Assembly: GCA_021399445.1 (NCBI GenBank)
Contig: JAJTUQ010000005.1
Span: 1,798,001 to 1,862,000 of the forward strand
Direction of reading: 5' to 3'
Source of the DNA: Xylogone sp. PMI_703
Lineage: Eukaryota > Ascomycota > Leotiomycetes
DNA: 64,000 nt
Shown: in pieces, positions 58,901 through 64,000 of the stretch
How positions within the stretch are numbered: the stretch's first letter is position 1
Layout of the letters: each line of letters begins with the position of its first letter
The notes under the pieces: model-generated
Database searches by the model: none
Seen by the model: the letters and a program-made list of their open reading frames with translations, nothing else
Told to the model about the DNA's origin: nothing
Program-made: the position numbers and the translations under genes

Positions 58901-60461
58901 TTTTCAGTGGAGACCCTCTTTGCACATAACAAAAGATTTTTTATTGTACATAAAGCTTAGGGCTTGGGGTTATGGATAGCGGTGAGGGATGAATCATGAT
59001 CCACGATTCATGCAAAGAAAAAGAAAATTCTGAAAAGAAGGACTAAGAGGTATGAAGTATTGAAATTGCTCCACCTTTTGGAATAGGGATTGATACCTTT
59101 TGAGAGATTTTGATCTTCATGGTATTGCTGTCCGGGGACAATTTGACTCATGTGCTAAACCTTGCTCCTTCCCGCTGCATTTAGTAGGGCAGATAGAGAA
59201 GAAAGAAAAAAAAGAAAAGTACAGAGGGGCCAAACCCCATCTCACCACAGAGAAGAATCTGCATTCTCAGACTTCACGGGGAAGATAGTGAAATTGATCC
59301 ATCGGGGACCTATCCTATGAATTATCATGTATCTGATACTGAAGCCAGATCTAAAACATCCATTAGACCGAACGAGCCGCCCGAATCGCGGCTATCTGTC
59401 GGCAATTTGCAAAAGTACGGGGATGGATCTACAGTAGCAGTGCGCAATGAAGATCCAAGCGCGTAACTAATGACAGTACTGGGATTCTTTTGATTCAACT
59501 CTAAGCAGATATGATAGTCCGTGATAGCCTGGCATGTGACGGGTCCATTGGGAAGAAACTCATGCAGGAAATAGTTGTAGTTACAATACGGTAGTTTTGA
59601 TGCCTGCTTCATATCGACGTAGCTCTTGGCGTTTGATAGGGAAATTCAATAATAATTTGAGGACGAAGCTACGGTATACCCCATACTGCTCGTGTTTTGT
59701 TCCTGGATCATTCCCTATCAAGCTTGTTTCTCTCTTAGAGGGATGCTTAATAACCTGGGAAAAGGCCGCGACTCCGCAGAAGACGGGAAAAGGGAGGTTC
59801 GTGTGCGGGCTTGTGCGTCATCAGCTGGAGCGCGGCGAGTGTGGAGATGGTGTATCGGCATTCGGGGTCTCCGACTAGAGCATTCATTACTCGAAGGCAG
59901 CTGAAGAAGTGAGATAAGGTAATAATCATGATGCCCAGAAGTTGACGAGCATGACGAGCATCGCAAGGTCAGGCCCGAAGTAGTTAATCGCGTAATCGTA
60001 TCTTTTTTTTCAGCAGAGAAACCATACGGAGGTACACTGACTCGGTTGCTGTCCAGGGCATGGGAGGTGAGCCCTGCAAAATGGCGCTTGGTTCCGCGCG
60101 CATTGCCATTACGAGTATTCCCGGCGATGTCATCATCAACATCCTCTAACCCACCTTCATCCATCACATCTCACATCTTCGCCGACGTCCAATATGCTGT
60201 CGTCATGACCATTCTGATATCAGCAGCCATAAGCCAGCTGGAGTCATGTCTTCATGACTACTGTACTCTCCTCACCCGGCACCCACTCCCCAGCAAAGGA
60301 CTTGCCGTGCACACGCAAGCATGGTGTTTTAGCTTTAACCTTGAAGGGAGGTTCGACGATGAATCCAGTGGGTTTATTTCATTTTGTCACGGGTAATTTT
60401 TTTCTAAAATCTCATATGAATAGTTACTTTTATCTTTATATTTAGTTATATATGGCTTCTC

Positions 60462-63400
60462 TCAAGCATGTGTTAACATATGTCTTGTAAGACTGAATTT
60501 TTGGCTAAAAGCTCTATCGCAATGAGGACAGCTATATGGTTTCTCCCCTGTGTGCACTCTTATATGTTCTGTGAGATACTCTTTTCGAGTAAATCTTTTA
60601 TCGCAATGGGGACAGCTATATGAGCTCTCTCCGGTATGTATTAGCATATGTCTTGTAAGATGGTGATTTCGAGTAAAGGTTTTATCGCAATGGGGACAGC
60701 TATATGGTTTCTCCCCTGTGTGCCCTCTTATATGTATTGTGAGATGTACCTTTCGAGTAAAACTTTTATCGCAATGGGGACAGCTATATGAACTCTCTCC
60801 GGTATGTATTCTGATATGTCTTGTGAGGTCATCATTACGAGCAAAAGTTCGATTGCAATGGGGACAGCTATATGGTTTCTCCCCTGTGTGCCCTCTTATA
60901 TGTACTGTGAGATGTTCCTTTCGAGTAAAACTTTTATCGCAATGGGGACAGCTATATGAACTCTCTCCGGTATGTATTCTGATATGTCTTGTGAGGTCAT
61001 GTTTTACGCCAAAAGCTTTATCGCAATGAGGACAGCTATATGGTTTCTGCCCGGTATGTGTTCTTATGTGACGGGTCAAGCGGGACGTGGACGGAAATAC
61101 TTTGCCACAGCTCGGGCAACCATAGGGACCGCTCTCTGCAGACAAGCTCTTGAGAAGTGCCGCTGGCTGCAGCAAATCACCACCTTGGTTATGCTCTATG
61201 TGGCTGCCAATATGTTGAGTAAGTTTCAACTTGTCAGCACAGTGTTGAGGACAGTAAGGGCATATTAGGGAGCGAGGACGGTAGTTATTCCACTTCTGTT
61301 GTAGCACAGTTTTTGCAACATCATTATACTATTTTATATTATTAACATAGTCCCAAATATTTGTGACACTGCTTACCATTTCATCTACGAACGATTTCCA
61401 GTCCGTGTCATGATGCTGCAATAGGCAAGGATGTGGCTTGTGTACTTTGCAGGTGCTTCCCTGTATACTCTTGCTCTTATTGAAGCAACGCCCGCGGTTA
61501 TTGTTCTTGGAAGCATGCTCAAGGACCAAATGGCGTGGGTTACAGCAGCCTGATTTCCCATGGTTGCACAGGTGAGATACTTCCAGGTTTTCTAATTATA
61601 TTAGCATTGGCATTTATCTTTGACTGTATGAAGGCACAAACCAATGACCATCTTTTCCCATTCCCAGGGAGTGAGTCTACCAGAGGCCAGCATTATCTTT
61701 CGAAGCATATGGGTTTTACAATAGGGATGCTTGGGAGGCTTGCATCTTCTTCCCCTCTGGATCCGCTTGCACTCATATGAGGTCAGGCACCTATTACTCA
61801 GGTCGGAGAGATTTGTTTGGTCCTTGTTTACGGCCTGTAGACCATACTCCTCTTCAGGGTTGTCAATCCAGAGACTCAATCGTTTCCAGGCCCATTTGCA
61901 CATCCGTTCTCTTGCATGCCCATCGAAAGCTAGTTTGGAATATTCGCCGCGAGTCATTTTGCCATATGCGAGCCTAGCATGCTCTTTATCAAATTGTTTC
62001 CGAGCAGCTTTTGAGACGACCCTGAGATGGTTAATCCCGGGCAAAATCTTTCCTCCAGTATACTCTTGCTCTATATCCTGATGATAGTCAGGATTCTGCT
62101 CATGTTCAGACTCTGAATCTGAATCAAATTCAGAATCAAGATCGGACTCGGAGGAGGATTCGGTGCCATTCTCAGACTGCGAATCGCTTTCAGAGCTGGT
62201 GTCAATGCTCAAATTGCCATTTGTATCTCTGCTGACTTCTGGCATATCTTTGAGGAGAACTGGGAGGCTGTTGTCTACATCTCCGGGCATTGTCCTCCGA
62301 AGGAGCCAATTTGTGACTTCCGGCAGCAGCTCAGATCGGTATCCCTCTGGATCGGAAAAGTAGTCTGGAGCTCTACCGTCTCTAAGGTACGAGTCAATGA
62401 CCTTGACAATAGCATATCCGCAACTCCACCCATCGGATGGTCCAAACTGGAGGAGGTTGATTGTCCCTGTCCAGCCCAAGTTGAATGCATTGCTGAGGGC
62501 GCTCATCAGGTTGGTGGCTGCCTCTGTGTCGCTTAATCCAGCCATACTATCAAAGACCGTGACCAGCCCGCTCCGTCTCTCAAAGTCCACCAGTTGCCAG
62601 TGATTGCCGCCTACATGTAAAGCTATCAGCGTCCTTTGACCTGCTTTTAATGCGGGTATTAAGCATGTGGCCCGCTCCTTGGGATTAAAATGAAGGAAGT
62701 GGGGGGAACAAAGTGCCCCAGCTATGCCAATATCTCTTAATTCTGGCTCAACGAGGTGATGACCTGAGTGTTCTATCATCATACACAAGATTGCCCGAAG
62801 CGTATCGTCATCGAGCCAGGTGCAGTCTCCCGTCATTAGTTCAATGACGTGCTCTACAGTAGGCAACATCGATGTGACCCATTCTTTGTCTGTGAGATCA
62901 CTGTCATAGACCTTGATGCTTTCTACTGTATTATCTTGAGAGCTGCTTGGTATGTCAGTCTCGATTTCAATTCCATGGGGGGAGGAGGGAGAGGGGCAGG
63001 TTGAATTGGCACTTGTCTCCGGCGCTGGGACTCGCGTGAGCTCTTCTATTGCTGTAATTATCGGTTCGTCCTCCAGCTCAATAGGTGCTATCACGTCCGT
63101 CTCGTGGCTTGATTCAACTGCCTCTTCTGGAGCGGGCATGGTCTCAGTGGCGGGTTCGTTCGAGACTTCATTTATCATAGCGGGATCGGACTCGTTACCT
63201 GCAGAAGCATCAGCAGACTCATTATCAATAGCAGGTTCAGGGTTGATCTCATGTGTAGTATGAGTCTCATGTGGAGGTGAGGAAGGTGAGGAGGGTTCAT
63301 GCGTGGCTTCATTAGCTAGCTGATACGCATTGTCTATTATATGTTTATCGGCATCAACTGTGGATACCGTTTTAGCGGTTGGTAGACCGCTATTAGTTGT

Positions 63401-64000
63401 AGAAGTCCTTCCTTGAGGCCTCGTGGGAATATCACGCCTGGTATCCCGGCGGTTGCACTCATTGTAGTATCGGCCGTAGTCCTGTCGTGAGTATTGTTGT
63501 GGACTGGGCCAATCATCTTGATAATAGGGACGCCTTTGTGAATAGTATCCGTCATCTTGGCGGGGCCCTTCTCGCGGCCATGAATGTCGAGGACGAGAAT
63601 ATGAGTCATATTGCTCATCTCGCAGCGGGTATTGACGAGGAGATGAATATCTGTGAGCATATTCATCTCGGTGGTAGTCCTGCGGGCGGCAACGTTCATA
63701 TTGTTCGTCTCGAGGCCGCTTCTGCTCTCGGTATTCTTCATACCTGCGATTCTCCTCTCCGTCCTGGCGGTGTCCGTGCTCTTGACGGTATTGACTTGGC
63801 CGGTATGAATGCTCTGAGCTTTGGCGAGGCGACCGCGAACGGGGAGCTGATGACGGTCCCTGGCTGCATGGTGGTTGCGGTTGGGCTTTGATTGAAAGTA
63901 AGTTGTCATATCGTAGACCTTTTGCCAATCTTCTTTCTAGCTCCTCCCTTAGGTATTTTCTATGAGCAGCATCCTTGCCCCGTTTTAAGAGATACTCCAC
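60462..64000 (-). CDS. Ulp1-like protease / His-Me finger / C2H2-array fusion protein, 5' partial
   Basis: The frame enters from the right edge. Exons on the minus strand are 64000-61642, 61591-61347 and 61295-60462, giving 1145 visible residues. Parts in order: an Arg/Tyr/Gln/Asp-rich region (about 60-200); an acidic Glu/Ser/Pro linker; a C48 Ulp1/SENP-like protease domain (about 375-560) with H467 in GGNHWQLVDF, D484 in VFDSM, Q520 and C527 in LQFGPSDGWSCGY; an Asp/Glu/Ser stretch; a His-Me-finger zinc-binding module (about 760-840) with EVSHLCNHGK, CCNPRHLVLE and a Cys/His tail; then nine C2H2 fingers ending at the stop. Intron 1 (61641-61592, GTTTGT to TTAG, branch TGCTAAT) is well supported because it restores the IENLEVSHLC motif. 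Intron 2 (61346-61296) removes an in-frame TAG. The finger frame has no ATG before its sixth tandem finger, which argues against a separate gene. A mobile-element or selfish origin is possible; function unknown. Confidence 0.75.
60465..61115 (-). repeat. Tandem C2H2 finger array with 168-base higher-order unit
   Basis: Eight fingers follow one another at 84-base spacing. From the second tandem finger on, linkers alternate strictly between TGESSYSCPHC and TGEKPYSCPHC, so the repeating unit is two fingers (56 codons, 168 bases), present three times plus a remainder. The nucleotide sequence is also strongly repeated (GCAATGGGGACAGCTATATG recurs). This points to recent unequal duplication. Confidence 0.85.
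61296..61346 (-). other. 51-base intron with in-frame stop, before the zinc-finger exon
   Basis: On the minus strand it runs GTTAAT to CAACAG. The length is a multiple of three and the flanking frames are the same. If it is spliced, WDY joins directly to KWNNYRPRS and the fingers are attached. If retained, translation ends at TAG after five codons (VNNIK), producing a protease plus His-Me protein without fingers. The branch-point match is weak, so this junction is less certain than the first. Confidence 0.55.

Follow-up and report, generated by a model that had tools for sequence, protein, structure and literature searches.

The window analysed here (the 64,000 nucleotides (nt) from positions 1,798,001 to 1,862,000 of contig JAJTUQ010000005.1, hereafter C21:1798001-1862000, in the 50.1-Mb genome of Xylogone sp. 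PMI_703, a fungus placed in Leotiomycetes incertae sedis) carries on its minus strand a gene, here called P, that almost certainly joins a Ulp1/C48-like protease, a His-Me nuclease module of the I-PpoI type and an array of C2H2 fingers in a single protein, judging by its splice signals and a colinear paralogue. Neighbouring stretches beyond the window were also retrieved, and they contain H, a gene for a UPF1-like helicase. We give an even chance to the reading that P, as one protein of 1174 amino acids (aa), and H together constitute a low-copy selfish or mobile element, with its copy at C21:1858367-1879017. Present in the sequence are the fusion, intact catalytic residues, the linkage of P to H, a pair of inverted repeats and decayed relatives of P; cleavage, the protease substrate, mobility and the target of P are what we infer.

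The spliced model of P, built from the window and the adjoining genome sequence, has four exons and ends at a TGA (60464-60462). P is interrupted by three introns of the spliceosomal type (51, 50 and 48 nt in gene order), with GT..AG ends and branch-like motifs, and the order of the predicted protein is: a low-complexity N-terminus (by eye, Arg/Tyr-rich and then acidic), the protease, the His-Me module and nine C2H2 fingers. The initial annotation had placed these three domains here, as one gene at 60462-64000 with two small introns. Pfam, profile and motif evidence agrees with the domain positions, and splice signals and the paralogue with a single gene of that order; both introns inside the window are supported by their splice signals, but a further one lies upstream of it, and of the proposed span only the stop end was retained, since the ATG is at 64135.

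The fusion is regarded as real because a paralogue on contig C12 (C12:3024223-3026261, here P') has the same order (protease, acidic linker, His-Me, fingers), the same phase-1 intron, and the later His-Me part and the fingers in one frame. P' contains stops and frameshifts; its intron inside the His-Me module has the position and phase 1 of the intron in P, with the donor GTAAGG, giving VLIDGLDVSHLCNNGK. The second in-window intron of P is missing from P', where, after a frameshift in the His-Me module, the later His-Me part and the fingers share one frame of 186 aa (L009 5477-6037). That the region instead divides into a protease gene with the end given by the listed 880-aa protein model P0001 and a separate finger gene is very improbable. 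P0001 has the same first intron as P and stops before any His-Me or finger sequence, and the genomic frame contains a TAG at 61329-61331, after which the initial annotation had allowed for an independent finger gene. However, P0001 loses the His-Me frame at a poor GTCATT donor, whereas a GTTTGT donor 7 bases further on restores the frame to VIENLEVSHLCNHGK and matches the GTAAGG donor of P' in position and phase. The TAG corresponds to the last 3 bases of the intron at 61329-61376 and is best read as its acceptor end, because P' runs from the later His-Me part into the fingers unbroken; a separate finger gene is consequently unlikely.

The protease region of P carries the C48-like motifs HVGGNHW, VFDSM and GWSCGY, and keeps the catalytic residues in the His-Asp-Cys order that C48 requires: His495 (62602-62600), Asp512 (62551-62549) and Cys555 (62422-62420). 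The match to SENP1 is weak (E-value, E, of 0.41), with His495 and Asp512 aligned. In P', PF02902 reached 23.7 and 23.6 bits, above the cut-off of 20.7; in P itself the scores were 16.1 and 18.4 bits, below it. In the His-Me module, PF05551 scored 30.4 bits (cut-off 27) in the second in-window exon frame, and 26.1, slightly below, in a longer spliced piece. A six-row His-Me profile including P, one row of which is imperfect, had only I-PpoI among its PDB matches (5/5, best E 1.3e-5); the His-Me sequence of P searched alone did not recover I-PpoI. Residues S820, H821, H835, E839 and N844 of P correspond to S97, H98, H110, E114 and N119 of I-PpoI, the roles of which are given in section 9 of PMC9587614, so that the full catalytic set is kept, and the pieces of P' likewise retain all five. 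Of the hidden Markov model (HMM) searches suggested at the outset, those with PF00096 and PF05551 supported the domains in P, and that with PF02902 passed its cut-off in P' and not in P. No group I intron context was found with Rfam at gathering thresholds in L008, L046 and L047, the two matches both being tRNA. Three further PF05551 His-Me loci exist in the genome (C20:6244698, C21:1247887 and C22:2589102), none with significant similarity to P within the surrounding 10 kb.

PF00096 matched nine stretches of P (E 9.6e-59), one atypical and eight canonical fingers; alternating units of 84 bp make up a tandem array whose 168-bp repeat comprises two fingers. Fingers F4 and F6 are identical at 82/84 bases, and both differences fall in contact codons. 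Over F3-F9 the four DNA-contact positions show a mean of 4.0 residues per position, versus 1.7 elsewhere (permutation p 0.003); without the structural positions, p was 0.011 for these seven fingers. This variation is suggestive of diversifying change, in a comparison made among the repeats of one gene and not among species. P might be a genome-defence factor with fast-changing fingers that recognise transposons, comparable to KRAB-ZNF or PRDM9 arrays, and a nuclease and protease that silence or damage them. The homogenised finger units, the diversity at contact positions and the quite different finger array of P' would fit such a role; nevertheless we consider it a poor prospect, as the single locus gives no population or orthologue comparison, only seven fingers enter the positional statistic, all paralogues found have decayed, and the linkage to H and the inverted repeats would be left without explanation.

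H has motifs conserved with those of its relatives, which are a Mollisia scopiformis protein (44%), another record (42%) and then weaker matches. Both genes are preceded by a 58-bp motif, 86% identical between them, at 238 bp before the ATG of P and 322 bp before that of H; within this motif, a genome search with a query spanning it gave no matches other than these two 5' flanks. Searching the genome with H placed 11 of the 23 rows in three loci: the intact H on C21; a relic broken over 52 kb, C12:2972576-3024226, ending where P' begins; and a relic at C19:7492573-7494788, about 240 bp from a P fragment. All three strong H-family loci (3/3) lie within 10 kb of one of the six P-family loci, in a count that omits the other 12 rows (E from 3.4e-11 upward), which are weak or probable cellular helicases, several of them in long open frames. 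Excluding C12, the route by which H was found, both remaining loci (2/2) are near P, the probability of this by chance being about 6e-6 with a 10-kb limit fixed after the distances were seen. Two short omitted rows, C21:4582798 and C19:7540550, may be additional relics; neither is within 10 kb of a P locus.

The genome search detected at least five P-family loci besides P, its locus counts being lower bounds: P' and the fragments at C1:5800278, C19:7018179, C21:4658638 and C19:7492252. The candidate element measures 20,651 bp end to end and is flanked by inverted repeats that are 87% identical over 55 bp, the likeness ending at AGTGGG on the outer side (coordinates in Table 1). The 25-bp core of the repeats, with up to 3 mismatches permitted, occurs at 2 places in the 50.1 Mb, both exact and inverted (control, 0). 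Apart from P and H, no long intact gene was recognised inside the segment; a DUF4419 match carries an internal stop, and the gene family 'T3' is represented by scattered fragments only, with a better-kept copy at C1:3840986-3841253 (in L055, C1:3839000-3842500).

Table 1 Features of gene P, helicase gene H and the flanking inverted repeats (window coordinates, extended past 64000 where needed, unless a contig is named).
Feature	Position	Strand	Basis or remark
Gene P	60462..64000, continuing beyond the window to ATG at 64135	-	Spliced model and colinear C12 paralogue
P exon 1	64094..64135	-	Outside the window
P first intron	64043..64093	-	51 nt; outside the window
P exon 2	61642..64000 (reaches 64042)	-	Low-complexity N-terminus, C48-like protease, beginning of His-Me region
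C48/Ulp1-like protease region, aa 385-625	62210..62932	-	PF02902 below cut-off in P, above it in C12 paralogue
P intron, phase 1	61592..61641	-	50 nt, GTTTGT..GCTAATA..TTAG; position and phase kept in C12 paralogue
P exon 3, His-Me finger/zinc module	61377..61591	-	PF05551 and I-PpoI profile match
P intron, phase 0	61329..61376	-	48 nt, GTAAGC..GTTAATA..ATAG; not in C12 paralogue
P exon 4, nine C2H2 fingers	60462..61328	-	PF00096 and repeat structure; TGA 60464-60462
Left 55-bp inverted repeat	60367..60421	+	Starts 40 bp past the P stop codon
Right inverted repeat	C21:1878964-1879017		17 kb beyond the window; inverted partner of left repeat
H, UPF1-like superfamily 1 (SF1) helicase, open 1140-aa frame	C21:1871937-1875359		AAA_11/AAA_12

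Several other observations were made in and around the segment. The 5' flank of P (L008 5162-5824, window about 64161-64823) includes tandem arrays (36-bp x 5.8 and 55-bp x 2.2) and a pair of 37-nt inverted arms separated by 360 nt, of which one belongs to the motif shared with H. At C19:4059067-4059219, a 153-bp sequence matches DNA lying between P and H with 92% identity. A tRNA gene (C21:1879243-1879316, L047 6244-6317) is located about 225 bp outside the right repeat, which may reflect chance or a target preference. A Starship-type DUF3435 gene on another contig (C20:70978-72320) is 24 kb from a C48 open frame (C20:96019-96384) and less than 100 kb from the contig start; this C48 frame is possibly Starship cargo.

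The functions predicted for P and H can be ordered by their support: DNA binding by the fingers, strongly expected from the family; cutting of DNA by the His-Me module, predicted with its residues intact; unwinding of nucleic acid by H, also predicted; and, last, action of the protease on SUMO- or ubiquitin-like conjugates, predicted from the family and a weak HMM match. Together, fingers, nuclease, helicase and protease would be consistent with a break directed to a site and subsequent copying assisted by the helicase: the fingers would guide P to a site on the DNA, which the His-Me module would nick or cut; H would unwind the broken strand so that it can be copied or transferred; and the protease would take SUMO or ubiquitin-like marks off chromatin or repair proteins nearby. 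A more ambitious version, which we regard as unlikely, is that P and H represent a novel class of mobile element in eukaryotes, one that dispenses with DDE, tyrosine and HUH enzymes: a natural zinc-finger-guided homing nuclease, in which C2H2 fingers would aim an I-PpoI-type nuclease at a selected site, the UPF1-like helicase would drive strand transfer, and the fused Ulp1-type protease would strip SUMO from repair or chromatin proteins and so tip repair to the advantage of the element.

The following observations count against a selfish or mobile element, or against the firmness of its parts. The flanks of the inverted repeats show no target-site duplication; the genome scan gave no second copy of the repeats, and none at the five relic loci exceeded shuffles; no second intact copy of the element was found in the genome; and no DDE transposase, tyrosine recombinase or HUH/Rep was found in the segment (Pfam, with a six-frame search outside P and H at E <=0.01 that returned only DUF4419). 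The gene order is H-P on C21 and C12 and P-H in the C19 relic. P and P' share only about 29% identity, so that no recent jump is visible. No relatives of P outside its own genome were found in collections holding few fungi, and the predicted target sequence of the fingers was not enriched within the 20,651-bp segment. The structure models are poor (predicted local distance difference test score, pLDDT, of 49 for the nuclease and 43 for the single-sequence protease model); SENP2, SENP5 and a NEDD8 protease made up 6/8 of the top Foldseek rows with the protease model, at E 0.47-1.2 only. The PF02902 scores below the cut-off leave weak HMM support for the protease in P itself.

These results bear on the suggestion of the initial annotation that P belongs to a selfish or genome-defence element. 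The suggestion gained plausibility from the presence of inverted repeats, a helicase gene linked to P and relatives in decay; neither a target-site duplication nor a second intact copy was found, and the further P-family copies detected are five decayed or fragmentary loci. The additional idea that the protease alters chromatin proteins is conjectural. The same evidence may also be explained by domestication, with P as a host regulator, a finger-targeted de-SUMOylase whose His-Me module would serve solely as a scaffold stabilised by zinc, H as a co-regulated host neighbour, and the repeats as marks of an old dead insertion. Both genes being intact amid decayed sequence, their common 58-bp upstream motif, the missing target-site duplication and second copy of the repeats, and the finger arrays typical of transcription factors all accord with domestication. 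We consider it less likely than the element, though a serious rival: the catalytic set of the His-Me module is fully retained, the five other P-family loci are relics in a pattern of repeated gain and decay, and no P orthologue, such as one might expect of a conserved regulator, was found elsewhere in collections that hold few fungi. For P and H as a selfish or mobile element, mobility itself stands at about even odds.

If the element reading is true, P would be a natural counterpart of the engineered zinc-finger nuclease, with a protease, a nuclease and a DNA-reading array in one chain and a helicase inside the same inverted repeats, and it would open to experiment the question why SUMO/ubiquitin proteases have been recruited by mobile elements time and again. 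In the portions of the literature covered, Ulp1 proteases and His-Me nucleases were each known as passengers of DNA transposons that also carry a transposase or tyrosine recombinase; what is new here is the inverted-repeat segment around P, the linked H and their common upstream motif. No protein with the domain combination of P is described in the titles and abstract openings that searches of open-licence papers returned.

Compared with I-PpoI and the His-Cys box homing endonucleases, P shares the catalytic segment recovered by the profile, but the first two Cys of its SHLC..C motif stand two residues further apart, and its module is not in a group I intron and is fused to other domains. The Helitron pattern (HUH Rep with PIF1 helicase) is not matched, as H is UPF1-like and the segment yielded no Rep; nor is that of Starships, at one end of which a DUF3435 captain is required (the genome gave 15 rows, 0 of them on C21). 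Of a DDE or tyrosine-recombinase transposon the terminal inverted repeats are present, whereas a transposase or recombinase and a target-site duplication were not found. KolobokP of animals (Kojima and Bao 2022, PMC9587614) resembles the candidate P-H element as mobile DNA with short terminal inverted repeats and an I-PpoI-type nuclease bearing S97/H98/H110/E114/N119; as far as the sections considered describe it, however, the transposase of KolobokP is a DDD/E enzyme, its terminal direct repeats are long and its nuclease is small and separate, unlike that of P, which forms one chain with a C48-like protease and fingers and is accompanied by a UPF1-like helicase, with no transposase found. In the corresponding excerpts of the other reports, Ginger1 and Mutator transposons encode Ulp1 domains as P does, that of Ginger1 being attached to a DDE transposase, with neither a His-Me module nor a long C2H2 array (PMC2836005); and oomycete CryptonF and CryptonS encode a C48 peptidase, in elements based on a tyrosine recombinase of a kind not found in the P segment (PMC3212892). 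Fungal KolobokH carries a RecQ helicase (PMC9587614) and is thus likewise a fungal DNA element with a helicase, which in our case is a UPF1-like SF1 helicase encoded by a separate gene. In these excerpts each carrier of a Ulp1/C48, I-PpoI-like or RecQ domain has it beside a transposase or tyrosine recombinase (PMC2836005, PMC3212892, PMC9587614), and in none of Ginger1, Mutator, Crypton, KolobokP and KolobokH do a protease, a nuclease and fingers form a single chain. P and H would work like an accessory-rich selfish element that, on the tests made, falls outside these known families.
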